From positions 1 to 29,723 of IMG/VR virus record IMGVR_UViG_3300031659_000055: DNA of 29,723 nt, one strand, 5' to 3'. The notes under the pieces are model-generated. The model made no database searches, had not been told where the DNA came from, and saw only the letters and a program-made list of their open reading frames with translations. Below are positions 10,776-29,723 of the stretch, one piece after another. Numbering within the stretch: the stretch's first letter is position 1; every line of letters starts with the position of its first letter. The stretch is from a virus. Both the position numbers and the translations under genes were made by a program.

Positions 10776-11728
10776 TAAAAAACTTAAACTTAAAGCAAGA
10801 GAAAGAGCTAGCTAATAACTTGTATTATGGAGGTGGCTATACTAAAAAATATTTAGGAGGTGGGGATGTTCCACCTATCTTAACTGCTGAACAACAAGCA
10901 GCAGCAGATAGTGCGGCAGCAGAAAAGAAAGGTAATACTAACGCTCTTATGGGTGCTGGATTAACTGTAGCTAGTTCTGCTGTAGATGCTTTAGATGATG
11001 ACCCAAAATACGGAACTGCAGATATAGCATCTTCAACATTGAAATACGCTTCTATGGGTGCAGTCGCTGGGCCTTGGGGTGCGGCTGCTGGAGCTGCTGT
11101 AGGACTTGGTGTTGGTATTGCTCAAAAAGGTAAAGCTGACAAGCAAATAGCTACAGACAAAAGAAACAAAGAGCAAACCGATGGTTATAACGCCTTCATG
11201 AAAGACCAGGAAGAGTTTGCAGGATACAAAGAAGGTGGTACTATAAAGCCTTCTAAGGAAATGGAATACGAACTAGACCCTGCTTACAGAAAGATAAAAG
11301 CGAAGTACGATAACGAAGCAATTCAAATGAAAAAGATATTGGGCGATGATTTTAAAGACGATTTCTTTAATCAGTTCAATAGTACATACTCTGACAACAC
11401 TAGAGTGAGTCTTCCAGATACAGAACGTTTAGAAATGTTTAGAACTAATGTAGAGCAAGATTGGGAGAACATACCTTTGGAAGATAGAAAAACATACATG
11501 AACACCTACAAAACAGGTGGTATGACTAAAGGTGCTTATAGCCATTCATCCAACCCTCTTACCGTAGTGGATAAGAGTGGTAAGCCTACAGGTATGGAAC
11601 TTACAGGTGGTGAGGGAGTATTTGATAAACCTTTCATGGGTAAGGTTAAGAATTTATTGGCTGGCGGCAAATACCAAGAAGCTGGTAAAGCAGTTCAAAA
11701 TGAAATGACAACTTGGAAACACAAATAA
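10772..11728 (+). CDS. Internal virion / cargo protein, 318 aa
   Basis: The protein starts on a four-base overlap with the muzzle gene. It has an Ala/Gly-rich, weakly hydrophobic segment at residues 92-118 (including GPWGAAAGAAVGLGVG) that could insert into or cross a membrane, then a charged helical body, and a C-terminal block with GGMTKGAYSHSSNPLTVVD (249-267) followed by GMELTGGEGVF. The SH-x-x-NP-L-x-x-V plus ELTGGE pattern is typical of crAss-like proteins encoded just after the muzzle gene. From position and the membrane-active segment, a virion cargo protein released during infection is inferred. No catalytic residues were seen. Confidence 0.65.
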   Translation: MIKNLNLKQEKELANNLYYGGGYTKKYLGGGDVPPILTAEQQAAADSAAAEKKGNTNALMGAGLTVASSAVDALDDDPKYGTADIASSTLKYASMGAVAGPWGAAAGAAVGLGVGIAQKGKADKQIATDKRNKEQTDGYNAFMKDQEEFAGYKEGGTIKPSKEMEYELDPAYRKIKAKYDNEAIQMKKILGDDFKDDFFNQFNSTYSDNTRVSLPDTERLEMFRTNVEQDWENIPLEDRKTYMNTYKTGGMTKGAYSHSSNPLTVVDKSGKPTGMELTGGEGVFDKPFMGKVKNLLAGGKYQEAGKAVQNEMTTWKHK

Positions 11729-11729
11729 G

Positions 11730-14522
11730 ATGGATAAGAAAGAATTATTAAGATTATTAGAACTCCATACTGAAGGTACTGGATTGTTTCCTGAAGTTAT
11801 GTTAGCTCAAATGATGACCGAATCTGGAATGACTAGAAAGTCTAAGGCAGATGGAGGTAAAGGATTGTCTGTGCTTTCTGAAAAATACCACAATTATTCA
11901 GGTCAAAAAGCTAGTGGAGTAACCCTTAAGAACGGAAAAGAAGGTGTTGATTACGTAATCATGGGTACGGAAGAGGACTTCGATTCTGAACAGGAAGCTA
12001 AAGATTACTTAAAAAAAGAGAAAGGTGGTAATCTTAAGGTTGGAGATACTAAAACCGTCAAAAATGATGATGGTACGTATACTGTAACTCTTGGTCAGCC
12101 TTTTAGGATATTTGAAAGTGATGAAGCAGGTGTTACTGGTCATATTAGATTCCTGACAGGCGATGGGTATACTGCTGGACATAAAGCTAATTACAAACAA
12201 GTTGTAGAAGCTAAAACTCCTGAAGCTCAAATTGAGGCATTAAAGTCTTCTGGCTATGCTACTGACCAAAATTATGTAAAAACCCTTACATCTGTACTTA
12301 ACAATAAGGTTAGAACTGAGAACCCTCAATACTCTAAGAACCCAGATGTTAAAGCTTCTGCTATTGCTTCTATAGAAGCTGGAGAAGAGGTTGGGACTGA
12401 AGAAGAGATTGCTACATCTTTAAGTATTACATACGAACCTCAAGTGGCTGGTTGGTCTATGACCTTTGATAAAAAACTAACAAAAGAAGATAAGATTGCT
12501 TATTACGATTCTTACGGTGGTAAGATGTTCTTAAATGATAGGCTTGGTAATATAGAGGATGGTGGATACGAAAACCAAGGAGTATTTAAGGATGATGACC
12601 AAGGGATGATTATAGGTTACGGTATAGACTTGAATAGTGTCAATACTGTAGACTTACTAGTTGAACAAGGTGTTCATAGAGCTGACGCTGAGAAGTGGGA
12701 GAAGTTAGGTATTCTAGGTAAGACCAAGTCTGAATTAGAAGATGAAGGTAAGGCTCTTGGGAAATTAAAGCTTAGCGTTAATGTTTCTAGTACTGCAGCA
12801 TTCAAGAGTGATATGTCTATAAGACAATCTATAGCTATAGATAAGAAGCTTGAAAAATACCAAGGTAAAGTGTCTGATGACGTTTACATTGCTTTGGCTA
12901 ACAACTTACAGGTTAACGGAGAATCTAGTGAAGATGGTTTTGATTCTGATGATAAATCAGCAAGAGAAGCCCATGCTAGTTCTTTGGTGTATGCTGCCAT
13001 GGATAAATGGATAGCAGAGAATCCTGATAAACCAGTCCCTGATAAAGTAGTTCATAAGGTATTTAAATCAAACTCTGATAGTCTTTCGGATAGCGGAGAT
13101 GAGAATGCAGCTGATTCATACTTTGATAATGCGAAAACATTATTTGATAGCTCTTCTGCTGCTAATAATTATCATGTTAGAGAGCCTGTTGTTTCAGATT
13201 ACGACTATAGCGAAGATGGTGATGGAGCTACTATTGAAGCTTTACTTAGAAGGCAGACTGCAGGCGAAGAGTTAACAGAGGAAGAAACCGATTACCTATA
13301 TAATGCTCAGTTAAATAACCACAAAGTGTTCTATCAAGCTACAGAAGCTGCAAAGAACACTAAAGGGATTATGACTGATGTTGATATAGCTTTAGTTAAA
13401 AAGAATGCTAACGACCCTGATTCATTAACCCCTAAAGAAAAGAAGGCGCTTGCTGTAATAAATAAAGAAGCTGATGTTCTAGAGAAAGATTTAAACATTG
13501 AAGCTACAAACGATGCATTGGTTAGGACTGATGAAACTGGAGGTTTAGGTCCTGCTGTTAAAGCAACTGAAGAGACAGCAGAAAGGACTGAGGTTGATAC
13601 AAGTCTTGTGGCTGGAGATTCTACAGCTCAAGATGATGCAATGAGGTTAGCTAAGGGTGATGCAGACCACGAAGCTAGAATCAAACAAATGCTTAAAGAT
13701 ACTGACTCTTACAATGAGGATGGAACTTTAATTACAGAGGCTCAAGTTAAAGCTAAGCAAGATGCAGAAGACAAATTAAATCAAGATAAGATTGATGCAG
13801 CCAAGTCTGAAAAGAAAGAAGGTCAAATGCGTAAAGCAGAAATGGCCCTAACAGGTTTGAAAGCTGCCGCAGGAATACTATCTTTGTCTCAAGCATTAAG
13901 AGCACCAGATGTTGAAACACCTGAATTAGACCCTTTAATATACGAAGCTTTACAGAAACAAAAAGCATTATCAGAGTCGGGTCTTACGGCTAAGGAAAAG
14001 GGAGCTGCAATGCAGAACATGAATGATGCTTATGCTGGAGCTATGAAGAATGTATTGAGAGCTTCAGGAGGTCAGAGGGGTATGTACTTAGCTAATCAAG
14101 GAACTGTAGATGCACAGCGCATACAAGGACTTAATCAATTAGCAGCACAAGACGCAGCTCTGCACAGGCAGAACATAAAAGAATACAATGCTTTAGCTAC
14201 ATCTGTAGGTTCTATGAAGTTAAATAGAGATATGAACGTAGAGCAAATGAAGCAAGCTACATTAAACAATAACAGACAAATACTTTCTGGAGTTGGTAGT
14301 AACTTATTGTCAGATGCTATTAGTGATGTATCATATTACATGAACCCTAACAGGAAAGCTACAGAAGATTTAATAAAGAATCTATCTGGAAAGAAGAACG
14401 AAGGAGATGGTTACGTTAACCCTTTACTGGAACAACCGATTGATACTGCAAACAAAATATCAGACGAACAAAAAGCTATAAATGCAGAGCTTGCTAAGAA
14501 CGCTAAAGAAACAAAAGTATAA
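11730..14522 (+). CDS. Internal virion protein with glucosaminidase and lysozyme-like domains
   Basis: This 930-residue protein probably opens the cell wall during DNA entry. Residues about 18-192 match the glucosaminidase (GH73-type) layout: FPEVMLAQMMTESG with likely catalytic Glu31, the KYHNYSG region, PFRIFES, GHIRFLTGDGY, and GYATDQNYVKTL at 175-186. Residues about 235-400 may be a second muramidase-like domain: an acidic lead-in, then GMIIGYGIDLNS with GYG at 296-298, as in phage or pesticin-like lysozymes; this part is less sure. The middle (about 480-680) is acidic and repetitive, probably a flexible linker. The C-terminal third is helical and Gln/Ala/Asn-rich (a hydrophobic turn with GLKAAAGILSLSQALRA near 705-721, then QRGMYLANQGTVDAQRIQGL), resembling internal core proteins of T7-like ejection machines. 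It starts two bases after the previous stop and its stop overlaps the next start by one base. Confidence 0.78.
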   Translation: MDKKELLRLLELHTEGTGLFPEVMLAQMMTESGMTRKSKADGGKGLSVLSEKYHNYSGQKASGVTLKNGKEGVDYVIMGTEEDFDSEQEAKDYLKKEKGGNLKVGDTKTVKNDDGTYTVTLGQPFRIFESDEAGVTGHIRFLTGDGYTAGHKANYKQVVEAKTPEAQIEALKSSGYATDQNYVKTLTSVLNNKVRTENPQYSKNPDVKASAIASIEAGEEVGTEEEIATSLSITYEPQVAGWSMTFDKKLTKEDKIAYYDSYGGKMFLNDRLGNIEDGGYENQGVFKDDDQGMIIGYGIDLNSVNTVDLLVEQGVHRADAEKWEKLGILGKTKSELEDEGKALGKLKLSVNVSSTAAFKSDMSIRQSIAIDKKLEKYQGKVSDDVYIALANNLQVNGESSEDGFDSDDKSAREAHASSLVYAAMDKWIAENPDKPVPDKVVHKVFKSNSDSLSDSGDENAADSYFDNAKTLFDSSSAANNYHVREPVVSDYDYSEDGDGATIEALLRRQTAGEELTEEETDYLYNAQLNNHKVFYQATEAAKNTKGIMTDVDIALVKKNANDPDSLTPKEKKALAVINKEADVLEKDLNIEATNDALVRTDETGGLGPAVKATEETAERTEVDTSLVAGDSTAQDDAMRLAKGDADHEARIKQMLKDTDSYNEDGTLITEAQVKAKQDAEDKLNQDKIDAAKSEKKEGQMRKAEMALTGLKAAAGILSLSQALRAPDVETPELDPLIYEALQKQKALSESGLTAKEKGAAMQNMNDAYAGAMKNVLRASGGQRGMYLANQGTVDAQRIQGLNQLAAQDAALHRQNIKEYNALATSVGSMKLNRDMNVEQMKQATLNNNRQILSGVGSNLLSDAISDVSYYMNPNRKATEDLIKNLSGKKNEGDGYVNPLLEQPIDTANKISDEQKAINAELAKNAKETKV

Positions 14523-16255
14523 TGGATTATTCTAAGGTAAATAGTGCACTAAATGGTTGGGTTGGTTCAGGAGCTAGAAGAGATAGAGCTCAAGCTGAAC
14601 TAGGTCAAGCTATGCAATTGCAACAGGCTCAAAGTCAAATGCAAGCAAATGAAGATGCTAAGACGCAAGAGATGGACCAATGGATGCAACACATCCATGA
14701 TATGTCTAGTCAGGTTGCTATACGTAATGAGGATAAAGAAAGAATCCAAGCTATGTATGACCAAGAGAAAGACACCTTCTTGACTGAATTAGAGAAGTCT
14801 GGTAATGACCCTATTAAATTTATGAATTCTGGTGGTAGACAAACTATGAAGAATTTCTATAATAATATAGCGTATTCAGATGATGCTCAAAGAATAAAAG
14901 GTAACACTTCGGAAATACAACGATTCTACGAGCAGTCAGAAGGCGATGATGGTAAGAAAGCTCACCTTATACCTAAGCAAGTACGTAGAGAGTTTGACGC
15001 TTTCATGAATGGTCATATAGATACATTTAAACATAGACAGCTATCTCCATGGGAAGAGCCAGGAGATGATGTAGATGGTAATACTAAGGCTGATAAGTTC
15101 TTAAACCAAGGTCAGAACATGCAGATATTCACAGGGAATTACATGCAAGAGTATGGTTTGTCTGAGACTGAAGCTATGAACATTCCTATAGATGAGTTAA
15201 GAAGATATACAGCGTCTTATGTGGGTGGTATTAATCCAGAACAAGCGTTACAACCTAGTGGAGAACTACAAGTTAGTAAAGCAGTTTCTGGTAGGATACA
15301 AAGACAACACAGAAAACTTAAATCTATTAGTACAAATCTGATAGGCAAGAACTCTCAAGAACACATAACAGCATTAGGTGATTATGATATGGGTGGTTTT
15401 GAATACGGAATGAATCCTGAGAACACTGAGATAATGGGTAATAGAGGGTTTGTCGGTGACGAGCTTGATATGGCTAAAGCTTCTTTAGGTGTAGAGAAGG
15501 TAGTAGACCTTGAAGGTTACATACCAGACGTTAAAGCTAAAGGTATATGGTACGATGAAGATGGTGGTTCTGTAACTCCAGGAGATGACTTAGGTGATGT
15601 AAGACCTGGTGCTATCTTTATGGGTTACAAGCTTAAGCAGTCTGATGGTTCTTACAAGTTAGTTAAGGCTGAAGACTTAGAGGGAGACCCTAAAGATGCT
15701 GAACACGCTCTTATACAAGAGTACGAAAGTGATGACGTTCTATGGTTTAATAGTTATTTCTATAATGAGATAGACCCTAATGACGCTAAAACTATGTCTG
15801 TTTATGAGTCTTTAAAGGCTGGTGAAAGTGCAGGATTAGCTAGGTATACTAAGGAAGCAACATTTGAGCAACCAGCTCCTACGCCTATAGCTAACATAGG
15901 GATTGAGTCTAGTGTAGAAGAAATATCTGCACAGCTACCTAACTACGATACTAAGGTAAATAGAGTTATGCAAACTCTAGGTCTTGGAGAGAAAAGAAAG
16001 GACAACACTACTAAAAGTATTTTATTATCTTTAGCTGCTCTTGACGGAGATATGGATAAAGGAATCAGTGGCCTTTCTGAAAGGTTTAACAATAACGATT
16101 TCCCTGAACTAAACGATGCTCTAATGAAAGGCGACAGTAAAGTTTTCTTTGATGCTTATTATAAAGTATTGATGAGACTTGGAGCTAGTTCGGAAGAAGC
16201 ATCAAGCTACCTTAAAATGGTAGATGAGTTAAGAAATAAAATACAAAAGGCTTAA
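14522..16255 (+). CDS. Internal virion / cargo protein, 577 aa
   Basis: It starts on a TAATG overlap with the gene before. The first 110 residues are Gln/Met/Ala-rich and helical (QAMQLQQAQSQMQANED), likely coiled coil; the middle has conserved-looking short blocks such as IPKQVRREFDAFMNGH and a beta-rich part (GYKLKQSDGSYKLVKAEDL); the end is helical. I do not recognise an enzyme domain. Its place between a lytic cargo protein and the giant polymerase protein, and its coiled-coil opening, fit a cargo protein stored in the capsid or tail, perhaps a partner of the proteins on either side. The function is inferred from context only. Confidence 0.65.
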   Translation: MDYSKVNSALNGWVGSGARRDRAQAELGQAMQLQQAQSQMQANEDAKTQEMDQWMQHIHDMSSQVAIRNEDKERIQAMYDQEKDTFLTELEKSGNDPIKFMNSGGRQTMKNFYNNIAYSDDAQRIKGNTSEIQRFYEQSEGDDGKKAHLIPKQVRREFDAFMNGHIDTFKHRQLSPWEEPGDDVDGNTKADKFLNQGQNMQIFTGNYMQEYGLSETEAMNIPIDELRRYTASYVGGINPEQALQPSGELQVSKAVSGRIQRQHRKLKSISTNLIGKNSQEHITALGDYDMGGFEYGMNPENTEIMGNRGFVGDELDMAKASLGVEKVVDLEGYIPDVKAKGIWYDEDGGSVTPGDDLGDVRPGAIFMGYKLKQSDGSYKLVKAEDLEGDPKDAEHALIQEYESDDVLWFNSYFYNEIDPNDAKTMSVYESLKAGESAGLARYTKEATFEQPAPTPIANIGIESSVEEISAQLPNYDTKVNRVMQTLGLGEKRKDNTTKSILLSLAALDGDMDKGISGLSERFNNNDFPELNDALMKGDSKVFFDAYYKVLMRLGASSEEASSYLKMVDELRNKIQKA

Positions 16256-16263
16256 AAGTAATT

Positions 16264-19200
16264 ATGGAAGAGAAGAAGTTAGCACCGACAATACAACCAT
16301 CGAATGATTTCTGGAGTATAGACGTACCTGAAGAGGGAGTACAGCAGTACGACTCCTCTTTAGATAGTTCGTTTAATGAACCCTCTTCTTCGGAAGGTTT
16401 AGATGTTCCTGATACTAGCATACCTGTTTACAGGAGGAATCTAAACTTAGAAGCTCCAGCCATGGAAGATGCCACCACAGCGTGGAGGCAACCAGAACAA
16501 CCAAAAGTTGAAATAGATGAGGATATGAACTGGTTTGAAATGGCTGGTAAATCGTTTGTTGTTGGTTTAGGTGATATGGTAGATAGCTTTGGTGACATAG
16601 CTGACTTCATGGGGGGTAGTACTTCTTCTGAAATATCTCAACAAGTATATGGTACAGATACATCTAAACCTATATCTGATTCGTTACACGGCTTTGCTGA
16701 CTATTTACAGTCTTATGGTGATGATGTTCCTGGGTTAGCTGATTTAGAGAATATAACTTGGGATGATTTATCTGATATAGATTTCTGGGGAACGGGCGTA
16801 GCTCGTATGCTTCCGTTTGCTTTATCATTAATGATTCCTGCTACGGGTGCTGCTAAATTAGCAGGCATGGCAACTAAAGGTCGTAAGTTTACTAAGGCTG
16901 CTGCAGCTATAGCTAAAGGCTCTAAGTCTATAGGTATAACTAAATATGCTGACCCATTAGTAGCTAGAGGTTTAATAACTGCTGGTATCTCAACTGTATC
17001 TGCGGGTGCTACAGCCAACCTTATAGAGGGGGCTGCATTAGCAGGACAAACACTTAATGAAGGTGTTAAGCAGGGACTTACTGAAGCGGAAGCAATGAAT
17101 GCTGCTAGCTTAGTATATAGGGATAACCTTGCATCTATGGGTGCTGATATTGTTCAGTATGGTTTATTCATGGGGCAAATGGGTATTGGTAAGGGTGCTA
17201 TATCTAGCGCACAGAAGTTAGGTGCTAAATTCGCAGGTACTAGTACGGCTAAGGCTGTTGCTGGTGTTGCTGGTAAAGCAGCTGCAAAGTCAGGAGTTAG
17301 TGCTTTAAAAGCTCCAGGAATGAGTGATGTAATTCGTAGTTCATTCAAGGCTATAGGTATGGGTGCGGTTCATGGTATTACTGATGGTGTTGTAGAACAA
17401 TTCCAAGAGGTGTTTCAAGATTGGTCTGTACAAAGAAGGATAGCAGAAGCTAAAGGTGAGGGGGATGAATTTCCTGGTTACTTAGATTTCTTCTTAGCAG
17501 ACGAACAAAGACCTACAAGGGTTCTTTCTTTTGCTACAAGTTTACTTATGTCTGGTGCTAGTAATACTATTAGAACAGCTACAGAAAACAGAACTACACT
17601 ACAGACCGCTATAGATGAGAGAAATGAGTCTCATGAGATGCTTCAGATATTTGAGAAGGATTTAGATAAAGGAGTATACACTGTTAAGCGTAAGGTTAAT
17701 GTAACTAACGAAGACGGTACGGTTAGTCAGAAAGAGGTTGTAGAAGAGTTAAGTGCTGAAGAGGCTAGTAACTGGGGTAGAGATGCTGCAGCTCATACTA
17801 TGATTCTTAACGCTGTTAAACAAGGTGACGAGCAGGTTATACTAGACTTCTTCCAATCTAAGTTAGATTCTGGTAACATATCAGAGGAACAGCATAGTTC
17901 TTACAAAGGTACTTTTGATGAGATTAAGACTGCTATGGAAGGTAAGCCTACTAACACTCTAGACAATAAAGGTAAGACTGAGTTAGTATATAATTCTTGG
18001 TTGCATAGCACAAGTAAGGTTCAGCTGAATAAGCAGAAAGAAGCTCTTCAAGCTAAGATTGATGAGATTCAAGCTCAGGTAGATGATGGTCCTTTAACTC
18101 AAAAGAGTGCTGACCAAGAGATTGCTGGATTAAAAGAGTTGTCTAAATCTTCGCTACAAGCTCAAGAAGAGATAGTTACAGCTACAGAGTCAAGAGTGAA
18201 TGAAATCTATAGCGAAGCTAAGGACAGGAAAGATGAAGAGACTTGGAATAAAGATACAGGTAAGAAGTTAGAAGGTATTGTAGAGAAGGAGCTTAAGGGC
18301 GAGGACTTGACTGCTGAAGAGCAAGCCTTAACAACTTCAGACGATAAGGCTAAGGGTTTTTATAGTGAGAAGAAACTAGAAGGGCAAAAAGCTAACGCTT
18401 TAAAGGCTGCTAAAAAGAAGGCAGGTAGAAAGTTTAAAGGCTATAAAGCTAATGCTGCTAGTTCAAAGGATGGTACTTACGTATACACTAAAAGGAATGA
18501 GAAGGATAATACTTTAAGTGTTATAACTGTATCTCCTGATGGTTCAGTTGAAATGAAAACTGACACAATTGATGAGAACTTATCTGAAATAGATAAGAAG
18601 GCTAAAGAGAAAAGCGAAGCTAAGACAGAGAAAGAGAGAGTACTTAGGGAAGAGAAGGAAAAAGCTAGAGACGAGAAAGACACTAAAGAAGAGAAGAAGA
18701 AGAATATAACTGAGAAGAATAGTCAATTCAAGGGAAAGGTTATATCTCCTTCAGCACTAGCCTTAGCTAATAAATTAGACATAGACTTGGAAGAGTCTGG
18801 TTTGATAGGTAAAGGTAAAGGTAAAAATGGTAGACTTACTAAGGCTGACATAGAAAACTATAAGCCTGAAGTAAAAGCAGAAGAGAAAGTAGAGGAAAAA
18901 GGTAAGGAAACTATACCTAAGTACTTGACTGGTAGTAATATAAAGGCTACTGCAAAGTTAGCTTTAGATGCTGTAACTGGTGTTCTTGGGGCGTTCTTTA
19001 ATAAAGAGAGAGCCGTAAGAATAGTAGACAAGGTAGAGGCAGCTTTACATAAACGTAAAATACGTAGAGCGTATATGATGGGTAAAGGTTCGCAAAGAAC
19101 TCTTGCTAATTTATATGCAAAGAAATCTGCAGACGGATTGATTTCCGTACAGTTCTTAGATGAGATATATAGTAGAGGCGATGAAGGTGCTGCTTACGCA

Positions 19201-22200
19201 ATGGGATTAGGGGTGTTTATTAACCCAGATGCTGCGACAGATAGTGCTGAAGAAGCTATATTTCACGAGAACTTTCACATATTTAGAATGCTTTATGGGC
19301 ATCTAAAAGAAGTTAAAGACATGATGAGGGCTATAGTAGGTCAGCCTGTGTACAAGACAACTAGACTAGAATATCAAGAAGAGCTTTTATACTTCTTTTT
19401 AGATAAGGAAGGTAATAAGAATACAATGACTCAAGAGGAAGCTTTAGAATACTTAAAGCTTAAGCAAGAGAATGCATCTCAACAAGAGATGTTTAGTGTT
19501 ATAACTTCTGTAGAGAAATATGCTTTAGAGAATAAGAAGGATATTACAGAGGAATTACGTAAAGAGTTCTATGAATCTTCTTTAAATATACTAACGCAAG
19601 CAGGGTTTGTTGAGTTAAAAGATAGAGCACAAGTGCATATACAAGACGAAGCCTTAGCTAAGTTAGGTGGTTTGTATGGTTCTGTTAATCAAGACTTATT
19701 CATCTCTGGTCAAAATAAGACAGAGTACAATAGTAGATTAAAAGCTTGGAAAGAAAAGATAAAAGATTCTGTTACTGAAGAAGAAGCAGAGTCTGCGTTC
19801 GAAGCTGTATCTAAAGGCTTGTATAAAGCTAAAGGAAAGCAGAGTTTAGAGGAGAAGTTCAAGAATGTTAAGAAGTTAATAGCTGATAACGAAGCTAAGT
19901 ACGGTGCTTACACTGTTAAGACTCAACAAGCTTTAAAGAAGAAGCTACTTAAGAAGTCTAGAGTAATAGATGATGTTAAGTATTTACTAAACGACATGGA
20001 GGGTGCTGCCCATAAAAGAGCTTTAGAGTTTGTGGAAAGCGAACTAGATGTACTTCTTGAGATAGATAAGAAAGAAAACTTTACTGTTAGTCAGTTATCT
20101 AAGTATATACAAGAGAAGCTTTTACTAGGTGAAAGTATAAACAAATCTTACATAGACTTATCAAGCGAGATATTATCTGATTACTGGGGTACGAAAGACT
20201 ACAAAGAGGTACGTAAAATAATTACAAACAATGAAGGTACAATAAAAGCCCTTATTCGTAATCAACACCTTACAGGTCTTACAGCCGAAGCTTCTAAGGT
20301 TTTATCTAAACGATTAGATGAGTCTGATAACGCTTACTTAAAGGCTTTGGAGGCTAAATTCTCTAAAGCTCAGAAGGAAGTATTATCCACTGATAATGAT
20401 GGTAATAAGATAATGATTGATGCAGATGATATATTCTCTGCTATGATAGATGATAACCCTCAGCAATTATCTGATAAGTTATATTCTATTCTTGAGTTTC
20501 ATTTACAAGTTGTGAGTCATACTTACAAGAGGGATGTAATCATCGGGAAGGACAAACTACTATCTTATATAAAAAACTTCACTGAAGGTAGAACTAAAGA
20601 GGAGTTTATTACAGATGCTCACGGATTAATAGATGCTTTAAGAATTCAAGAAGAAGGCAAGAGCTGGACTTGGATGGAGAATAACGATGAGCATGTTGCA
20701 AGATTCCTTACAACTCTAATAGAGCAATACGAATTAATGCCAAAGACTGCAGTTCCATATACAAAGAAAGGTGCTGCTATGACATTCGGTTCTGTATTAG
20801 GTGGGTTACATCTTCAGATGAATTCTATGACTACAGAGAAAGGTCTCTTCCTTACTGCTGATGGATATGCTCCTGCTTTATCAAGGCAAGATGTAGACAG
20901 AGTGCAGAGTGCTCTTAGGGACGCTGTAATGTTTGGTTCTGAGTTTTTAAATAAAAAACAAACAGGTAATGTTCCTTTAGGTTTGTTAACTGAAAATGTT
21001 AATGCAACACCTACAAACGTAAGGCAAGCTGGAATGTTATCTCAGCTTAGAAAAAGAATACTATACACTAGAAACTTAGCACGACTTGTATACACTCCTA
21101 ATCATGTTTACAAGAAAGGAGAGAGAGATAAAGATTTGCTTCATTTTATAAACGCTTTCTTCTTGCCGTTTGGTACTAACGAGAGTGGAGTAACTTTTAA
21201 GTTTAATGAATTAGCTTTAGACGAGTTCCGTATACACGACGAAGAAACAGACAAGAACCTAACGCTTAGAGAGTATTTCGAAGGTGATAGACTTAAGGCT
21301 ATATACAACCAATCAATTAGTTTTGATTTAAACGAGAGCGTAAAAAACAGTAATGTTACCCTTGAAGAATTAACTAGTAAGGCTAACTCTGATGTGTTCA
21401 TGCCGTTCTTTATAGCTAACATCACAAGCAAGATAGGTGGAGCTAAGATTCAAGACGGTGTACGTATAGATAAAGAGATTATGTCTCAAATTAGAGACGA
21501 CTTTGATAAGCAGATTAAGGAGGCTTATAATAGTATGGAGAAATTCCCTACAGATAAAGAAGGTCAAGTTGAGTATGTTCAAGAGCTCCCTGAATCTGGT
21601 TTAACTAACTCCCCTAAAGGACGAGAATTCCAAAGGAATGGTAGGGTTACTAGACAGATTAAACTTACAGAGTTAAAGACTGATAAACAAAAAGAAGACT
21701 TTGCTAAGAGAAACGGGCTTATGTCCTTTTCTACTTCTGGAATACAACCTGGTGAAAGGGTGTGGGAAAGAGAAATAGTAAAAGAGTGGAAGACTTCTGA
21801 AAGGGGTTCTATCGCTATGTATACTGTTATGGACGAAGACGGAGGGAAGAATAATTCTAGCTCTCTTAACGACCTACAAGGTCATAAAAAATTATCCCAA
21901 GCAGTTATAGCTACATTTAATTCAGAGCATAACGAAGGGTATATGTCTACCATCTTAACTCCAGAAGGGAAGACTCTTAATCTTAATACAAGAAAATACT
22001 TCTTAGAATACAATGCAGACTCATTAAGAGACTTCATGAAGAAGGATAAAGGAATGCCTTTTGCTGAATTATTCTCTTACGAGGCTTATCAAAACCCTTA
22101 TGCTATGAGGGCTCTTGAGAATGATTACAAGTTAGAGTTCCTTTCTTTGCTTGGTGATTCAGTATCTGAATTAGATAGACAAAACATATCTAGTGTAGGT

Positions 22201-25200
22201 ATTACTGAAGGAGATATTAATGAAATTAACAGAGCTTTAAAGTCGGGGTCTAAAGAATATAATCAGGTTGTCCGTGACTACTCTGATAAGTCTAGAAGAT
22301 ACTACGCTAAGGCTACTGTAATTCCTGCAGACAATCAATACAACCTAGAGGGTGGTATTGCATTCTTCCTAGAGAATGCCGTAAACAATCCTTATGACTT
22401 TACTAAAGAGCAATTAACGGTTATAGACAAGCACTTAAAGTTAGTGGTTGATATAACAGCTACTAAAAGCCAAAAGGACTTAGCCTTAAAGGAAGTTAAG
22501 AAAGAGTATGTAATGGCTGTGACTACAAAGTTGCAAGCCAAGATGGATGAGGTTGTAGATTACCACAACGCTAAGACTAGAGAGATTATAGCTAATCATA
22601 ATAGCGACAATGACTTTGACTTATTCAAGGTTACTAGTCAAGCTACCATAGATAGCTTATTATCAGAAGGTTACACAATAAAGAATTCTGATACTCAGAA
22701 GTCTAAAGTTAAAGGGGAGCTTAACCTATTAGGTAAATTAGCATTCCAACAAACTATAGATGGTAAGATTCAGTACCTAAACAATGTAGAGACTCACGTA
22801 GCTATGATGGATAAGTTAGGAAGAAGTCCTCTCGATGCCGTAGCTTCTATGAATTACTTTACAAACAAGTTCTGGTTACAAGACTTGAATGCTAACACAA
22901 TGGAAGAGCAGAATTTTAGTATGAAGAATAAGCGCTCTACGGGTCTTATTGCTCCACACGATTCTTCTTATTCTGGCAACAGAGTAGAGACTATTATTTT
23001 TGATGACCAGGATTTGGATTTCGAAAACGAATCTCAGAAAGTACAGATATATAATTACGAAACAAAACAATTAGAGTACGTTAAGCTTACGCCTAAACTT
23101 GCTGATTCAGCCTCATACATAACGCAAGAGGAAGCAACAAGACTAGAAGGTAATCATGGTGGTTTATCTGACGTTAAGGGCTCATTCAAGCTTGTTGGAT
23201 ACGGTAGAAATGTAGACAACAAAAGGATAGCTTCTCATACAGGGCAGAAATCTAACCAATTCTACTTCAAAGGTCATACTATTGTATTAAACAATAAGGT
23301 TAGAGGACCTCTTAGGGGAGTGTATAAGTCATTAAAAGCTAGAGAGAAGTTTTATTCTACTGAAGGTTTAAAGAATCATAGAGTTCTTTCTTATGCAGAT
23401 AGTGGTGTTAAGAAGTTTAACATCAAAGGAGTTAACACATTTTCTTTAGAGGAATTGAACAGTAAAGAATTTGACCTTAATGGTCGTTTAGATAAGTGGG
23501 GTTACGATGAGGTTAATAACCTTAGAGGATTCGATGGTAGATTCTTTGGTGTACAAAATGAATTAGATAAGGAGGCTACGTCTGCAACTGTAGCGAAGCA
23601 AGGTATATCTAACATGAATGTATTTGCTGACCACTGGGACACAAACGTACAAGGTCTTTCTCAGAAGGTTATGAATGCTTACGCTCTTGCTTTAGATTTA
23701 CAATACGAAGAAGAGATTGCTAGCCTTACATACGAAGAATTAGCTAAACAAGATATGGAGTCATCGTCTATGCCTCCTGTCCAAGCTGTTATGTTCCAAG
23801 AAGGTAACGACTCTTTACCTACTATTAGAGCGAGAGTTCTAGAGTTGGCTAATTCTAAATTAAGAAAGAAAGGATTTAAATTAAGAACTGAGGGTACTCT
23901 ATCTTTACAAGAGTCTGATATAATCCAAGGATTTGAAATATCAGGTGAGGGTAAATTGGTAGAAACTTCTTCAGCATTAAAACCTATTAGCGTAAGCGGT
24001 ACAGAAGGTAACTTAAAAGTATCGCACGCTGAAGCTTCTATATCTCAGCACATGGCTAAAATGCTAGGCATCACCAAAGAAGATGTAGCTAAAGCTAAAG
24101 CTAGTGGTAAAGAAATCTTATTCCTTGCTACACGTATACCAGCATCATCTGCAGGTTCTACTGTAGTATTAAGGGTTGCTGCTATATCTGACAAGCAAGG
24201 TAATACTATTGCTGTTAATTCTAAGACCTCTTCTATTATGGGAGCTGACCTCGATGGGGATATGCTACACATTAATATGGTAGAGACAGGTAAAGATTTA
24301 ACGGACTTACAGAAAGCTAAGAATGATGTTATACAATCTATTATAGATTTATACTCAGAACCTTCTGTGGTTAATATGTTAATTCAAGAGATTGAAATTG
24401 ACTCTACTACAAAATCTAGTAATCTTGCTTTGTTCGGAAATGAAGAAGGAAGTACTGAAGTAAATAATGATTTAGGTTTACTAGGGACAAATAATTTATA
24501 TGAGACCACTAAGGGTAATGTACCAATGATTGGTATAATTGCATCTCAGAACCTTATGTACAATTATATATCTCAAGGTAATCCTGAGCTTATGTTCGAT
24601 AGTACGGCTATATCATTCCAAATGGAGACTGGTAAACCGTTAACCACTTTAGATAACGTAGTTGGTAAAGATGGTACTGGAACTTACTATGAGGTATGTA
24701 AGTACTTAAACTTAGTTTTAGATGATGGTAAGAATAACAACAGAGCTAACTTCCAATTTATAAAAGAAACTGCTGGACAGTTTATAATGATGATGAAGTA
24801 TGGTGTTAAGCCTGCTGAAATATCTACATCTATAAGAGATATGAATTGGGCTGCCCTTAAGGGATTGAACTCTAAGGAGATATACGATATGGCTATAGAT
24901 GCATCAAGCATTTTAGCTATGGAGTATAGTTCAGTAGAGGATGAAATGCCTGGTTTAAATGAAGTTATACACGATGTATTTAGCCGTGGTGGTAAGTTGA
25001 AGTTTAATATTCCTGAGATTGTTGCGGAGGCTAAATTTGAAAGAACTGGAGAAGAAAATCCAGATTCGATGGTAGGTAATAAAGCTATACTACTCTACTA
25101 CGTTACTAGTCAGATAGGTCAAGACCTTAAGGATTTAAGTCTATTCGTAGGTTTAGATAAGAAGTTTACAGCAAACCCTCTTGATAACTTAATACAACAT

Positions 25201-28200
25201 CAAGCAGCGCTTGAAGCTTTAAAGGTTCAGCCAAGTATAGATGAAAGATTAAGAGCAAAGAATCCTTTATACAAGAGACAACTAGAAGCAAACCAAAAAC
25301 TTATACAGAAAGCTATAGATGAGTCTACCGAATTAAGTAATGGCTATGCCGAAGGATTACTCGGGGACTACAACTTCGAAGAGGTTACAGGTACTGCAGG
25401 GGTTTTAGGTGTAGAGATGATTAAAAATAAAGATGGAGATGATGTTCCTTTAGGGATATTTAATAAAAACTCAAACGGGTTAGTTAATGATTCTGAGTTA
25501 ATAGGTCAATTAACTAAAGCTCTAACATTGTCAAGAGCTCTTATTCATGCTGGTTATGATGTATCTAATAAGATTCTACAACTAGGTGGTATGTTTGAGG
25601 ATGAGATGGGGCTTACTTACGAGGAGTTCGCAGCACTACCAACAAATGCAGGAAAGTTAGTACACCTAACAACTGCTGCTGGGAATGTAGCTAAAGCGTT
25701 CCAAAACGACAACTCAAACAACCAGAATAAATGGTTAGGAAATGAAGGTATATTAAAGTTAATATCTACTAAGGGTTATATAAAAGAAAAAGGGAAAACA
25801 CAAATAGCAGGATATGTTAAGTTTGATATAGATGTTGCTAAACTTCAACGAGAGTTAGAGTTCACTGAGCATGTTGATGTGTATAGAAAGGATTTTGTAA
25901 AACTTCCAGAAGCTCTTCAGAAATTCTTAGTATTTAATGATTTGCTGTCAACTGGTTGGGGTTCTAAAAACCCTGGAAAGTCTATGATACCTTACATGTC
26001 TGCTAAGTATTCTTCTCAAATTAATACTTGGTTTAGCGATATAAACGATTCATCTGTAAGTAACTTCACTGATGATATGGCTATAATGAAAGAGAAGCTA
26101 AGTCATATAATGAACTTCACTGGAGATAATGAACTAGACAACAGAAGAATTGCTTTAGTGCTTCAGATTGGATTGAACGGTCCTAACGCTACAGTGACTA
26201 TAAATACAAAGACGGGAGAACCAACTATAAAGAACAAGCATAATGGTGGACTGTTTTCTGTACGAACTAGTAAGATAGGTGCTAACCCACTTAATCAAGT
26301 GTCTGAGATTGTATTCGATAAGCAAGCAACTGCTGAATATAGAGAGGTAAACCCTTCAGAAACTTTCCCATTCCAATATGGTAAAGGAATCCCTTACTTT
26401 AATCAGTTCCCTGAGTTATCAATGCTAAATACTATGGAAGCTTTAACTAAGGTTAAGCACGCTGAGAATGGTGTTTCTGTACATGAAGTTATTACACCGT
26501 CAGTAACGAGTGACACCAACACAAAGACAAGTATTAACAGAGAAAGATGGACTAAGGACTCTCCAAAGGTAAATCCAGGAACTGCGTATGTGTTTGCTGA
26601 AAACATTAACTCAATCGGAAGTTCAAGAGTTGGAGGAGGTTCTGCTGTAATTAGAAATAATCCTAACGCTATAGGTATAGTAACTAAAAAATACTACACC
26701 TACAAAGAAGATAGGACTAATGATAATAAAGAGCAGTGGGATGCTAACTTCCAAGATACTGATTCTGATTTTGAGTTATTCGCAAGAACTAACATGAAGC
26801 AGTTTAGTGAATTAGAGAAGTTTGATTCTAAGATATTCCCTGATGGATTTGCAAATTCTTTAGCTGCTATACCTAATAGCTTTGCTTTATGGTTACAGAA
26901 GGAATTGAAGAGTAGGTTTGACTTAGTTACAGAAGTAAACTCTAAGGGTACAGGTTTAATATCTAAATCTGTCCAACAAACAAACGACAACAAAGGACCT
27001 AAGAAGAAGTTCCTAAAGATAGCATCTCATAGTAGAAACCACTTCGGAGATACTGGTGTAGCGTATACTAAAAAAGAATATGCATCTAAGGTTTTACCTA
27101 AAGGTCAAACAATGGACAAGCTGTCTGAGGAGATGTTAGAGGATTTCAATCTAAGATTTAAGGTTTATAAGGCTTCCGTAAAGAGAGCTGCTGAAATCAA
27201 TAAAGAGATTAGTAAGGAATTGGACGATACCATATATAGATTAGACCATAAAAACAAAGAAGCTAGTAAGATAGCTTTAGATAAGAAGTTTCAAAATGTT
27301 AGAGATATATACGCTAACCTTAGAGATTCAATAGACAAAGGAACTGTAGTTATAGGTAAGGAGTCTTACAAATTAGACTCTATGGCTTTTGATACATTAC
27401 TACGTTTAGCTCAATACAACTTTGGTAATCATATAGCTGAGAAGCAAATAACTGATTGGGAGTATGCACACGGTAAGAAGTTTGTAGAGACGGTTATTAA
27501 TGACCAACACAAACATTCTAAAGATATTTCTACGCTGACGTTATGGATGTCGCCAGGTGATTTTGGTAAAACTAAGCCAGCAGTAGCTTATATAAACAAG
27601 AACATCAAAATGACTCACATGAAGTATACAAGAAACATATCTCTTGTTGCTAAAGAAATGAACGATAAATTGGATTCCTTATTCAAGCATAAGTTTGGTA
27701 GCGATTTAGTTGCTAAAGGAGTTAAGGCTTGGATGGCTTATATGCCTATAGGTACAATGGGTTACAGTGAGAAGCTGTTTGAAAACTTCTACCAATCTCA
27801 TACTGGTCTTGAGAAGATTACAGATAAGAAAGGTAAAGTATCTTATAGAGATAGGTCTAACTTAGAGTTACACCCAGAATTATTCAATAAAAGTGGTAAG
27901 CATGGTAATACTATATCTTTGAAAAGAGAAGGTAAGAAATATGCTAGTTTACACGAATCAGAGAGAGAGTATATAGAGATGTATGTTAAGTATACAAACT
28001 TCTACAGAGAGTTGATAGTAGCTAAAGGCTTATATAAGACGACTAAAGGAGCTAACTATGTTGCTAACATAAACTCTAGTACTTGGGAGACTTACCACAG
28101 AAGAGGTTTGTTTGGTATGTACTACCAAATGTTTAAGGGTGATGAAATGTTCTCGGACGTAATGATTAAAGGTGTCAACCCTATAACGGGTGAGCCAGCA

Positions 28201-29723
28201 ACTTTAGATTACTTTAGTTGGAAGGCTATCTTTATGCACGCTCCAGGAGAATCATTCAAAATATCTAGAGCTCAGATAGTTAAAGGTGGAGTGAAGATGA
28301 TTTCTTCTCAAGGACATAGCAAGCAAGTTATGACTGGAGCTGAAAGAATTAAAGCTTACAAGGCTATACAAGATAGAGCTCAAGAATTATGGGACAACAA
28401 GAAGGATGATAACGATAATGATATAAATGTAATCTCTCCAGTTAATGAGGTTATGGCTTTAGAATCTGAAGAGGCTGTTAACAGATATACACATAAGCGT
28501 TCTATGACTTCTGGTTACTTAGCTACCCATAACATACATCAAGCTTTAAATACTTATGTAAGAGACTTTATGTTCTTGCATGGTAATATGTTCTATGACC
28601 CTAAAGCTAAAGTTTGGAATACTCTTTCGTGGGCTGGAGACGATAAAGCTTTAGAGCACTCTTATATAAGCGACGAAAAAGTTACTGATTCTAGATATTC
28701 TGGATTAAAGCATATAAGGTCAAACGAAGGAGATGCAAGTCTTAAAGATTATAAGTTAGCGTTCTCAGGATTTAATGATAAGACTGCAGAAATAGATGCA
28801 GCAATGTCAAGCCTTGGAGATAATCATATAAATGCTAGGAAGTTTTTACAGAAAGTTGTCAAGGAAGGATTCTTACTTAAAGAAAAGAGTCTTACTGTGA
28901 GTGATAAGACTATAAGGGTGTTGAACAGACAACCAGAGAAAGTTTTAGCTAACTTCTTCACTCAATGGACTATGTATATCGCATTAGGATTTAACATTCC
29001 TGCTGCAAAAGGTAACGTGTTGATTGGTAAGTATAACGCTTATAGACAAGCTGGTGGTAAAGCCTTAATAAAAGGTGAGGCTAGATACTGGGGATTAAGT
29101 AGCGATAAGATTTACGACAACCCTGCTAGGCTTAAAGCCCGTAAGATGATTGACGAACTAGGTATACTTACATATCGTGCTGAGGAATTAGCCGAAGGTT
29201 TAGGTGCAAGTTCTTTAAGCTCTCTTATCTTCTACCCTATGGTAGCTGCAGAGAACTGGATACAACAAGCACAATTCTTAGGTCAATTAACTCAGAAACA
29301 ATGGGATGGTTACTTCATAGACAAGAACGGAGACCTTAAATTTAATGGAGCAGAAGAAGACAGACTAACTCAACAGGATGTAGCTGACTTAGAAAGGAAG
29401 GTAATTGATGTACAAGGTAGAGGATATTCTGAAACTGATGTACGTTACATACAATTGTTCTCTCTTGGTACAATGGCTATGCAATTCAAGAGATGGTTTC
29501 CAACTTTCTTAGCTGATAGATTTAAAAACGAAGACGTAGATGACTTAGGTAATTTACGTATGGGCTCAGTAATAGGAGCTAGAAAGTTTATAAGCAGAAT
29601 GCATAAGGAAGGGAAGTTGTGGAAGTTTAGCGAGTTCAAGAAAGAACTTGATGAGAACTTCAAGCCACACGAACGTGAGGCTGTGATGAGAGTATTCTAT
29701 GGGACTAACGGTATTATGGTTGC
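16264..29723 (+). CDS. Giant virion RNA polymerase polyprotein, 3' end missing
   Basis: One open frame runs from ATG 16264 through the window edge without a stop: 4486 full codons and unfinished. Visible parts in order: an acidic N-terminus; hydrophobic helical segments (about residues 180-205, 239-265, 290-313) that may touch membranes; coiled-coil and a Lys/Glu-rich linker (about 770-822); a PSBD-like segment (827-866); a zincin motif HENFH (1001-1005) with Glu1039/1040 as possible third ligand; a long unassigned stretch; the polymerase core with TRIP (Arg2624) and ADLDGD (Asp2662, 2664, 2666); a GMIGI-like helix segment after it (VPMIGIIASQNLMYNY); a small GGGSAVIR/GIVTK block (3443-3476); and a C-terminal region with MQFKRWFPTFLADRF. 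The DxDGD motif with the upstream RxP block is that of crAss-like virion RNA polymerases (Cellulophaga phage phi14:2 gp66), which enter the host with the DNA and transcribe early genes. Here many parts that are often separate genes are fused. Upstream gap is 8 bases. Confidence 0.88.
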   Translation, partial: MEEKKLAPTIQPSNDFWSIDVPEEGVQQYDSSLDSSFNEPSSSEGLDVPDTSIPVYRRNLNLEAPAMEDATTAWRQPEQPKVEIDEDMNWFEMAGKSFVVGLGDMVDSFGDIADFMGGSTSSEISQQVYGTDTSKPISDSLHGFADYLQSYGDDVPGLADLENITWDDLSDIDFWGTGVARMLPFALSLMIPATGAAKLAGMATKGRKFTKAAAAIAKGSKSIGITKYADPLVARGLITAGISTVSAGATANLIEGAALAGQTLNEGVKQGLTEAEAMNAASLVYRDNLASMGADIVQYGLFMGQMGIGKGAISSAQKLGAKFAGTSTAKAVAGVAGKAAAKSGVSALKAPGMSDVIRSSFKAIGMGAVHGITDGVVEQFQEVFQDWSVQRRIAEAKGEGDEFPGYLDFFLADEQRPTRVLSFATSLLMSGASNTIRTATENRTTLQTAIDERNESHEMLQIFEKDLDKGVYTVKRKVNVTNEDGTVSQKEVVEELSAEEASNWGRDAAAHTMILNAVKQGDEQVILDFFQSKLDSGNISEEQHSSYKGTFDEIKTAMEGKPTNTLDNKGKTELVYNSWLHSTSKVQLNKQKEALQAKIDEIQAQVDDGPLTQKSADQEIAGLKELSKSSLQAQEEIVTATESRVNEIYSEAKDRKDEETWNKDTGKKLEGIVEKELKGEDLTAEEQALTTSDDKAKGFYSEKKLEGQKANALKAAKKKAGRKFKGYKANAASSKDGTYVYTKRNEKDNTLSVITVSPDGSVEMKTDTIDENLSEIDKKAKEKSEAKTEKERVLREEKEKARDEKDTKEEKKKNITEKNSQFKGKVISPSALALANKLDIDLEESGLIGKGKGKNGRLTKADIENYKPEVKAEEKVEEKGKETIPKYLTGSNIKATAKLALDAVTGVLGAFFNKERAVRIVDKVEAALHKRKIRRAYMMGKGSQRTLANLYAKKSADGLISVQFLDEIYSRGDEGAAYAMGLGVFINPDAATDSAEEAIFHENFHIFRMLYGHLKEVKDMMRAIVGQPVYKTTRLEYQEELLYFFLDKEGNKNTMTQEEALEYLKLKQENASQQEMFSVITSVEKYALENKKDITEELRKEFYESSLNILTQAGFVELKDRAQVHIQDEALAKLGGLYGSVNQDLFISGQNKTEYNSRLKAWKEKIKDSVTEEEAESAFEAVSKGLYKAKGKQSLEEKFKNVKKLIADNEAKYGAYTVKTQQALKKKLLKKSRVIDDVKYLLNDMEGAAHKRALEFVESELDVLLEIDKKENFTVSQLSKYIQEKLLLGESINKSYIDLSSEILSDYWGTKDYKEVRKIITNNEGTIKALIRNQHLTGLTAEASKVLSKRLDESDNAYLKALEAKFSKAQKEVLSTDNDGNKIMIDADDIFSAMIDDNPQQLSDKLYSILEFHLQVVSHTYKRDVIIGKDKLLSYIKNFTEGRTKEEFITDAHGLIDALRIQEEGKSWTWMENNDEHVARFLTTLIEQYELMPKTAVPYTKKGAAMTFGSVLGGLHLQMNSMTTEKGLFLTADGYAPALSRQDVDRVQSALRDAVMFGSEFLNKKQTGNVPLGLLTENVNATPTNVRQAGMLSQLRKRILYTRNLARLVYTPNHVYKKGERDKDLLHFINAFFLPFGTNESGVTFKFNELALDEFRIHDEETDKNLTLREYFEGDRLKAIYNQSISFDLNESVKNSNVTLEELTSKANSDVFMPFFIANITSKIGGAKIQDGVRIDKEIMSQIRDDFDKQIKEAYNSMEKFPTDKEGQVEYVQELPESGLTNSPKGREFQRNGRVTRQIKLTELKTDKQKEDFAKRNGLMSFSTSGIQPGERVWEREIVKEWKTSERGSIAMYTVMDEDGGKNNSSSLNDLQGHKKLSQAVIATFNSEHNEGYMSTILTPEGKTLNLNTRKYFLEYNADSLRDFMKKDKGMPFAELFSYEAYQNPYAMRALENDYKLEFLSLLGDSVSELDRQNISSVGITEGDINEINRALKSGSKEYNQVVRDYSDKSRRYYAKATVIPADNQYNLEGGIAFFLENAVNNPYDFTKEQLTVIDKHLKLVVDITATKSQKDLALKEVKKEYVMAVTTKLQAKMDEVVDYHNAKTREIIANHNSDNDFDLFKVTSQATIDSLLSEGYTIKNSDTQKSKVKGELNLLGKLAFQQTIDGKIQYLNNVETHVAMMDKLGRSPLDAVASMNYFTNKFWLQDLNANTMEEQNFSMKNKRSTGLIAPHDSSYSGNRVETIIFDDQDLDFENESQKVQIYNYETKQLEYVKLTPKLADSASYITQEEATRLEGNHGGLSDVKGSFKLVGYGRNVDNKRIASHTGQKSNQFYFKGHTIVLNNKVRGPLRGVYKSLKAREKFYSTEGLKNHRVLSYADSGVKKFNIKGVNTFSLEELNSKEFDLNGRLDKWGYDEVNNLRGFDGRFFGVQNELDKEATSATVAKQGISNMNVFADHWDTNVQGLSQKVMNAYALALDLQYEEEIASLTYEELAKQDMESSSMPPVQAVMFQEGNDSLPTIRARVLELANSKLRKKGFKLRTEGTLSLQESDIIQGFEISGEGKLVETSSALKPISVSGTEGNLKVSHAEASISQHMAKMLGITKEDVAKAKASGKEILFLATRIPASSAGSTVVLRVAAISDKQGNTIAVNSKTSSIMGADLDGDMLHINMVETGKDLTDLQKAKNDVIQSIIDLYSEPSVVNMLIQEIEIDSTTKSSNLALFGNEEGSTEVNNDLGLLGTNNLYETTKGNVPMIGIIASQNLMYNYISQGNPELMFDSTAISFQMETGKPLTTLDNVVGKDGTGTYYEVCKYLNLVLDDGKNNNRANFQFIKETAGQFIMMMKYGVKPAEISTSIRDMNWAALKGLNSKEIYDMAIDASSILAMEYSSVEDEMPGLNEVIHDVFSRGGKLKFNIPEIVAEAKFERTGEENPDSMVGNKAILLYYVTSQIGQDLKDLSLFVGLDKKFTANPLDNLIQHQAALEALKVQPSIDERLRAKNPLYKRQLEANQKLIQKAIDESTELSNGYAEGLLGDYNFEEVTGTAGVLGVEMIKNKDGDDVPLGIFNKNSNGLVNDSELIGQLTKALTLSRALIHAGYDVSNKILQLGGMFEDEMGLTYEEFAALPTNAGKLVHLTTAAGNVAKAFQNDNSNNQNKWLGNEGILKLISTKGYIKEKGKTQIAGYVKFDIDVAKLQRELEFTEHVDVYRKDFVKLPEALQKFLVFNDLLSTGWGSKNPGKSMIPYMSAKYSSQINTWFSDINDSSVSNFTDDMAIMKEKLSHIMNFTGDNELDNRRIALVLQIGLNGPNATVTINTKTGEPTIKNKHNGGLFSVRTSKIGANPLNQVSEIVFDKQATAEYREVNPSETFPFQYGKGIPYFNQFPELSMLNTMEALTKVKHAENGVSVHEVITPSVTSDTNTKTSINRERWTKDSPKVNPGTAYVFAENINSIGSSRVGGGSAVIRNNPNAIGIVTKKYYTYKEDRTNDNKEQWDANFQDTDSDFELFARTNMKQFSELEKFDSKIFPDGFANSLAAIPNSFALWLQKELKSRFDLVTEVNSKGTGLISKSVQQTNDNKGPKKKFLKIASHSRNHFGDTGVAYTKKEYASKVLPKGQTMDKLSEEMLEDFNLRFKVYKASVKRAAEINKEISKELDDTIYRLDHKNKEASKIALDKKFQNVRDIYANLRDSIDKGTVVIGKESYKLDSMAFDTLLRLAQYNFGNHIAEKQITDWEYAHGKKFVETVINDQHKHSKDISTLTLWMSPGDFGKTKPAVAYINKNIKMTHMKYTRNISLVAKEMNDKLDSLFKHKFGSDLVAKGVKAWMAYMPIGTMGYSEKLFENFYQSHTGLEKITDKKGKVSYRDRSNLELHPELFNKSGKHGNTISLKREGKKYASLHESEREYIEMYVKYTNFYRELIVAKGLYKTTKGANYVANINSSTWETYHRRGLFGMYYQMFKGDEMFSDVMIKGVNPITGEPATLDYFSWKAIFMHAPGESFKISRAQIVKGGVKMISSQGHSKQVMTGAERIKAYKAIQDRAQELWDNKKDDNDNDINVISPVNEVMALESEEAVNRYTHKRSMTSGYLATHNIHQALNTYVRDFMFLHGNMFYDPKAKVWNTLSWAGDDKALEHSYISDEKVTDSRYSGLKHIRSNEGDASLKDYKLAFSGFNDKTAEIDAAMSSLGDNHINARKFLQKVVKEGFLLKEKSLTVSDKTIRVLNRQPEKVLANFFTQWTMYIALGFNIPAAKGNVLIGKYNAYRQAGGKALIKGEARYWGLSSDKIYDNPARLKARKMIDELGILTYRAEELAEGLGASSLSSLIFYPMVAAENWIQQAQFLGQLTQKQWDGYFIDKNGDLKFNGAEEDRLTQQDVADLERKVIDVQGRGYSETDVRYIQLFSLGTMAMQFKRWFPTFLADRFKNEDVDDLGNLRMGSVIGARKFISRMHKEGKLWKFSEFKKELDENFKPHEREAVMRVFYGTNGIMV
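18742..18861 (+). other. PSBD-like (E3-binding-domain-like) segment in the giant protein
   Basis: Residues 827-866 read ISPSALALANKLDIDLEES, then a Gly/Lys turn (GLIGKGKGKNGRLT), then KADIENY. This is the pattern of the peripheral-subunit-binding domain of 2-oxoacid dehydrogenase E2 proteins: SP-S/A-A-x-x-L-A-x-x-x-x-I-D-L, G-x-G-x-x-G-R-(I/L)-T-K-x-D-(I/V). It is flanked on both sides by Lys/Glu-rich linker, as a free-standing small domain would be. Related tiny folds in nucleoid proteins bind DNA, so either protein or nucleic-acid binding is possible. Confidence 0.6.
19243..19392 (+). other. Zincin-like metallopeptidase motif in the giant protein
   Basis: The segment EEAIFHENFHIFRML carries HExxH at residues 1001-1005 (His1001, Glu1002, His1005), preceded by an acidic/small residue helix start and followed 34 residues later by a Glu pair in YQEELLYFF (1039-1040) that could supply the third zinc ligand. 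Large polyvalent phage proteins are known to contain such zincin domains. If active it may cut the giant protein itself or neighbours. Confidence 0.62.
24124..24279 (+). other. RNA polymerase catalytic core motif (RxP ... DxDGD)
   Basis: FLATRIPASSAGSTVVLRV (Arg2624 in TRIP) is followed about 38 residues later by IMGADLDGDMLHINM, with Asp2662, Asp2664 and Asp2666 as the metal-binding triad. The same order (R-x-P, hydrophobic strand, N/G-A-D-x-D-G-D) is found in the beta-prime subunit of cellular RNA polymerases and in the two-barrel polymerases of crAss-like phages and eukaryotic RNAi polymerases. The common middle residue Phe is Leu here. Confidence 0.85.
26590..26691 (+). other. YVFAEN / GGGSAVIR / GIVTK motif block in the giant protein
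   Basis: Residues 3443-3476 read VFAENINSIGSSRV, then GGGSAVIRNNPNAIGIVTKK. From memory this resembles a small uncharacterised domain of phage and mobile-element proteins with the pattern VFGDN, G-x-G-G-x-A-x-I-R, PNA-x-GI-x-TK. The function of that domain is unknown to me; the compact pattern of Gly, Arg and Asn suggests a nucleotide- or phosphate-binding site. Confidence 0.45.

Follow-up and report, generated by a model that had tools for sequence, protein, structure and literature searches.

With its 29,723 bases the window analysed here takes up the whole of a virus record. As the earlier note had claimed, an ATG-started frame of 4486 codons runs through its 3′ part without a stop and is still open where the record ends, its stop codon therefore lying outside. 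Upstream, the muzzle gene is followed by ORFs of 318, 930 and 577 amino acids and then by the giant gene. The proposed crAss-like origin is borne out by the muzzle protein together with a crAss-type major capsid protein (phrog_11589, E 2.5e-27), and relatives of the window add the portal (phrog_6547) and TerL (phrog_6681), giving a virion block of the Crassvirales type. No profile match and no homology were found for the 577-aa ORF.

Table 1. Features of the window; residue numbers refer to the giant protein.
Feature	Position	Strand	Remarks
Muzzle protein	6027..10775	+	PF25731 crAss_MUZ, E 1.5e-116; marks the crAss-like tail block and gene order
Upstream 930-aa ORF, cargo-protein position	11730..14522	+	N-terminal glucosaminidase PF01832, E 6.2e-15; phrog_3513 endolysin, E 2.7e-16
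577-aa ORF, directly upstream, second cargo-protein position	14522..16255	+	Syntenic in L001, L009, G006 and G007
Giant virion transcription protein (predicted)	16264..29721	+	4486 codons to the record end
Module 1, N-terminal region, residues 168-531	16765..17856	+	Colinear with residues 166-549 of the p-crAssphage gp45 family
PSBD-like (E3_binding) domain, residues 827-864	18742..18855	+	PF02817, in a variable linker
Zincin motif HENFH, residues 1001-1005	19264..19278	+	Kept in all homologues covering the site
Module 2, RNAP core, residues 2278-2868	23095..24867	+	Match to the joint crAss RNAP profile
DLDGD catalytic motif, predicted Mg2+ site, residues 2662-2666	24247..24261	+	Conserved in all homologues covering the site
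Insertion of ~166 residues with DUF7831 (residues 3426-3504), module 2/3 joint	26491..26991	+	Absent from L001
Module 3 match, residues 4226-4480	28939..29703	+	gp49/g065 cargo family; whole module from ~3580 to the C-terminus

The giant frame is one translated gene, with a single coding frame and no hidden stop or frameshift. With a stop-codon probability of 0.078 per codon at the composition of the window, 4486 open codons would arise by chance with a probability of ~10^-159; none of the other five frames stays open for more than 146 codons. The stop codon was sought in relatives found by a scan of viral contigs. In IMGVR_UViG_3300030388_000730 (L001), 93% identical to the window over the searched region, the gene is complete (3353-17458) and ends after 4701 codons; in a second contig (L002), 92% identical, the frame is open at the contig end. 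Third codon positions hold most of the changes between the window and L001 from end to end of the gene, and dN/dS is 0.08-0.27 in every 300-codon tile, which argues for a translated gene under purifying selection rather than an artefact. Residue 4486 of the window aligns with residue 4588 of L001, so that ~113 residues are missing and a full protein of ~4,600 amino acids, ~515 kDa, is expected. The earlier note had raised the prospect that an assembly or sequencing error masks stop codons; although this is a metagenomic record with an incomplete 3′ end, such an error has next to no chance of being the explanation, being refuted by the independent contigs (the same frame in five, complete in four of them), by dN/dS below 0.3 with third-position bias along the whole frame, and by the negligible probability of so long an open frame.

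More distant homologues, also complete in a single frame, measure 4424 aa (L009, in G005), 4062 aa (G006) and 4048 aa (G007); they share ~49% and ~38% of their residues with the window, and identity between lineages is 37-49%. The gene lies in the relatives directly after an ORF of the 577-aa type and before one of ~170 aa. Residues 151-450 of the window are 75-79% identical to L009, which places them with the best conserved parts of the chain. TerL (L010, L052) keeps 80% identity between G005 and G006, against only 37% for the giant protein (L009, L051), uneven rates that are in line with the reported fast evolution of crAss-like RNAPs (PMC7886860). Searches with the giant sequence itself gave no match with the full protein in the PDB (phmmer), none with residues 2013-3512 in 50,697 phage records (tblastn) and no link to known families in PHROGs. 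A scan of genome contigs also gave no relative, so no host link could be drawn. Only profile-profile comparison tied the protein to known families.

For this comparison, members of the window clade and of known families were aligned and the resulting profiles compared by hhalign, with reversed and unrelated profiles as controls; the controls stayed at or below 3% in all module comparisons. Large tiles set against single families first gave 62-84%, values that are suggestive, and it was joint profiles that settled the matches. At the N-terminus, the match to the Intestiviridae gp45 family spans residues 168-531 (95.6%, E 1.3e-8; reversed control 0.0%), and residues 105-315 match residues 91-316 of phi14:2 g067 at 84.7% (E 6.7e-6). 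No similarity of this region to crAss001 gp47 (0.5%) or to Suoliviridae N-termini (0.5%) was detected by profile comparison. The membrane-prone N-terminal segments of the earlier note reduce to a single weak candidate, residues 179-197, with a Kyte-Doolittle value of 1.37. Its PSBD-like domain and zincin motif both stand. The former scores 26.2 bits against a Pfam E3_binding cut-off of 23.7 and is above the cut-off in four of the five homologues (window, L001, G006 and G007), with no hit above it in L009, while HENFH, at residue 1001, is present in all five. In the zincin-like metallopeptidase of polyvalent phage proteins the HEXXH helix is accompanied by a glutamate in the next helix (PMC5512222); the window, L001 and L009 have a downstream Glu, which G006 and G007 lack at that place. 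The zincin region matches the known crAss zincin profile weakly (6.9%). Taken together, module 1 can be assigned by homology as a predicted counterpart of p-crAssphage gp45 and phi14:2 g067, carrying a PSBD-like domain and the HENFH motif.

The central part of the protein matches the joint crAss RNAP profile at 95% (E 3.8e-8; reversed control 0.1%). In the alignment DLDGD falls on GSDFDxD, and the preceding RIP...GNTI falls on RIP...GSTI, in agreement with the DxDGD polymerase core that had been read from the sequence; the motif begins at residue 2662. An AlphaFold model of the RNAP region, built from a 6-7-sequence alignment, has a pLDDT of 35.9, too low to show two double-psi beta-barrels. 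By homology, including that of the DxDxD barrel, module 2 is a predicted crAss-like virion RNAP of the phi14:2 g066 type; in phi14:2 itself this virion enzyme serves the early genes (PMC7886860). The distance from HENFH to the DxDxD motif in the window is 1661 residues, compared with 1475-1876 in known families. When split relatives are laid end to end the same distance is 1667 (crAss001), 1647 (p-crAssphage) and 1671 (jaberico), and also 1698; this closeness to a virtual concatenation of separate proteins counts in favour of a colinear fusion.

The earlier note recorded the long C-terminal part but missed its identity. Residues 4226-4480 match a joint gp49/g065 profile at 97.3% (E 1.7e-11; reversed control 0.6%), and crAss001 gp49, phi14:2 g065 and Fpv1 gp34 each point to this same C-terminal place, near their own C-termini. 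Module 3 is thus assigned, from these matches, as a putative homologue of crAss001 gp49 and phi14:2 g065. The match covers ~250 of the ~1,000 residues of the module, the remainder being unmatched, and the AlphaFold model of the module (6-7-sequence alignment) reaches a pLDDT of 41; the C-terminal part might then be an unrelated tail or effector domain, and the frame an ordinary Suoliviridae-like fusion of modules 1 and 2. Given the E-value with clean controls, the convergence of three separate proteins on one place and the failure of the next large downstream ORF (1187 aa in L001) to match gp49, this seems decidedly improbable.

The same three modules, in the same order and at the same position after the muzzle gene, are found in phi14:2 (Steigviridae) as g067-g066-g065, all three annotated as virion proteins from MS/MS. 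Unlike in the window they are three separate genes there, g067 and g066 overlapping by one base, with DFDID in place of DLDGD and with no HExxH found in g067. crAss001 also differs in having three genes, of which gp49 and gp50 run opposite to gp47. A HEAFH zincin motif lies near the C-terminus of gp47, the RNAP is gp50, and all three products, gp47, gp49 and gp50, were found in virions by MS (PMC10172136). In p-crAssphage (Carjivirus) the split falls between modules 1 and 2, where the window has none: gp45 (1957 aa) is annotated as 'RNAP associated protein fused to zincin protease' and gp44 (4070 aa) as 'RNAP catalytic subunit fused to unknown RNAP subunit', and by profile comparison (99.5-99.9%) gp44 consists of modules 2 and 3, that is, RNAP plus gp49. 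The giants of the Suoliviridae (cr118_1 gp14, 4946 aa; cr52_1 gp34, 4464 aa; cr130_1 gp79, 5801 aa; cr273_1 gp35, 5794 aa) resemble the window in having the HExxH zincin motif and then DxDxD in one frame, at a spacing of 1475-1876, but differ in that cr118, cr52 and cr273 encode module 3 downstream in a gene of its own (gp49-family match 99.8%). Several of them are readable only with TAG as sense, and that of cr118 has a C-terminal helicase-like part. In the cultured Flavobacterium phage Fpv1, gp33 (L057, 29869-43074, 4401 aa) is annotated merely as a virion structural protein; comparison with the crAss RNAP profile gives 99.9% for its residues 2367-3593.

The modules are therefore all separate in Steigviridae, divided as 1 and 2+3 in Intestiviridae, as 1+2 and 3 in Suoliviridae and Fpv1, and undivided (1+2+3) in the window clade. 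The earlier statement that other functions lie on separate genes in better studied crAss-like phages consequently applies in full to the Steigviridae, but not to the other three, where they are partly fused. Its companion, that the polymerase is much shorter in such phages, is likewise true of the Steigviridae (2180 aa for phi14:2 g066, 2412 aa for crAss001 gp50) and fails for p-crAssphage of the Intestiviridae (4070 aa), for Suoliviridae (4464-5801 aa) and for Fpv1, giant RNAPs of 'up to ~6000 aa' being described in a review as a hallmark of crAss-like phages (PMC10136315). What is new here is not a giant crAss RNAP, which was already known, but the presence of all three modules in one reading frame, in a separate lineage. 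The complete fusion was seen in no other of the ~10 crAss-like genomes opened, a small survey, and is unmentioned in the open-access literature searched; an earlier description may exist elsewhere. Nor is the principle new, since virion RNAP fused to a metallopeptidase is known from N4-like phages and from Thermus phage P23-45. P23-45 gp96, a 5,002-aa tape measure protein fused to a virion RNAP (PMC10770324), and the N4 virion RNAP are, as is predicted for the window protein, single giant virion chains that combine an RNAP with a metallopeptidase (PMC10770324, PMC5512222), and gp96 has membrane segments in the same chain (PMC10770324). They differ in that the RNAP of P23-45 is N-terminal on the tape measure, that of N4 is of the single-subunit type, and no gp49-like module is reported for either.

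It would seem very likely, from the homology of its parts, that in this frame a crAss-like lineage has its whole virion transcription apparatus encoded in one chain, of ~450-530 kDa (~515 kDa expected for the window). The clean, separate matches of the three modules in the order of phi14:2 support this reading, as does the succession of muzzle gene, ORFs and modules 1-2-3 that the window shares with that phage. In these terms the giant protein is a predicted colinear fusion of the counterparts of g067-g066-g065 of phi14:2, or of gp47, gp50 and gp49 of crAss001. Conservation along the chain points the same way. Identity between the window and L009 drops to 0.25 at residues 751-900, to 0.26-0.27 at 1201-1500 and to 0.09 at 3451-3600, the last being the expected joint between the RNAP and gp49, and this last trough, with lineage-specific inserts at the joint, counts for a fusion of three modules. 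Against the single-apparatus reading weigh the weak zincin match, the glutamate missing at its place in G006 and G007, the low pLDDT of the RNAP model and the lack of hits for the sequence itself in the PDB and in phage records. The DUF7831 within the window's insertion at the RNAP/gp49 joint lies at 26539-26775, and the insertion is largely absent from the other relatives too. L001 has ~268 extra residues after window residue 2790, just past the RNAP core (L001 residues 2795-3063, ~11735-12541), in which a VVYRG...YQYFTT stretch recalls, by eye, ADP-ribosyltransferase-like domains; this insert gave no significant Pfam or PHROG family, and an intein was rejected since no intein-like ends were seen by eye.

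Troughs of this kind bear on a refinement of the single-chain reading with which it is compatible, namely that the chain is made whole and then cut at the joints, by its own zincin or by another protease, into separate gp47-, gp50- and gp49-like virion proteins. The joints are the least conserved stretches and tolerate lineage-specific inserts, although such inserts would also suit joints that serve as flexible linkers in a chain left uncut. Steigviridae make these modules as separate virion proteins, and autoprocessing by zincins has been proposed for large injected phage proteins (PMC5512222); no cleavage site, on the other hand, was identified, and the zincin motif stays on module 1 in the split families, where the modules are already separate, so that cleavage of a polyprotein is not the only conceivable role for it. 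We give processing somewhat less than an even chance.

Since TerL is absent from the window, three relatives stand for the window clade in a TerL tree from which zeta genomes were left out. They form a clade of their own with 100/100 support and a long branch, and a supported branch parts them from Intestiviridae, Steigviridae, Suoliviridae and Fpv1, so that the clade falls in no sampled named Crassvirales family. The root of this tree is uncertain and a small portal tree gave a branching order without resolution; with that proviso, we call the window clade a putative separate, deep crAss-like lineage.

The window phage is uncultured and its giant protein is known here from sequence alone, but the virions of its relatives suggest a route of delivery for a single-chain apparatus. 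The chain would be packed in the capsid beside the DNA and would leave by way of the portal and tail barrel, partly unfolded and probably with its N-terminus ahead; module 1 would be the first part to meet the envelope. The RNAP would presumably refold in the cytoplasm and transcribe early genes independently of the host enzyme. Joining the modules covalently would hold their ratio at 1:1:1 and set their order of entry. For crAss001, in which the tail constrictions are below 50 Å, the published model already has cargo passing through the tail in a partly unfolded state (PMC10172136). That the lineage delivers its whole transcription apparatus as one uncut chain of ~500 kDa, threaded unfolded through the tail and refolding in the host, is a bolder proposal that we advance tentatively and consider unlikely. 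Whatever its fate, the size of the chain sets a mark for models of how proteins are ejected through crAss-like tails, all of which have to accommodate it.

With the window clade the series of arrangements is complete: split at both joints, at the first only, at the second only, or at neither. The series makes it likely that the three modules act together and ties module 3, the 'unknown RNAP subunit', more firmly to the polymerase. If the 1+2+3 fusion were ancestral, the known families would have become split afterwards, by breaks that arose independently at these two joints.

Two neighbouring genes may also be described. Downstream of the giant gene there is a conserved ORF of 1081-1198 aa (L001 18729-22292, L007 13967-17212, L006 4380-7976, L053 406-3672), which matched none of the crAss cargo profiles tried. 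The L001 copy (1187 aa), which belongs to no PHROG or Pfam family, was considered as a separate gp49 homologue and rejected. Upstream, a PF01832 glucosaminidase N-terminus is found in the 930-aa ORF of the window and in its counterpart beside L009 (16751-18994, minus strand), whereas in L001, despite 93% identity over much of the giant gene, the counterpart (L012, 10680-12842) is 720 aa long with a different N-terminus and no Pfam match, as if a predicted peptidoglycan-hydrolase module had been exchanged.
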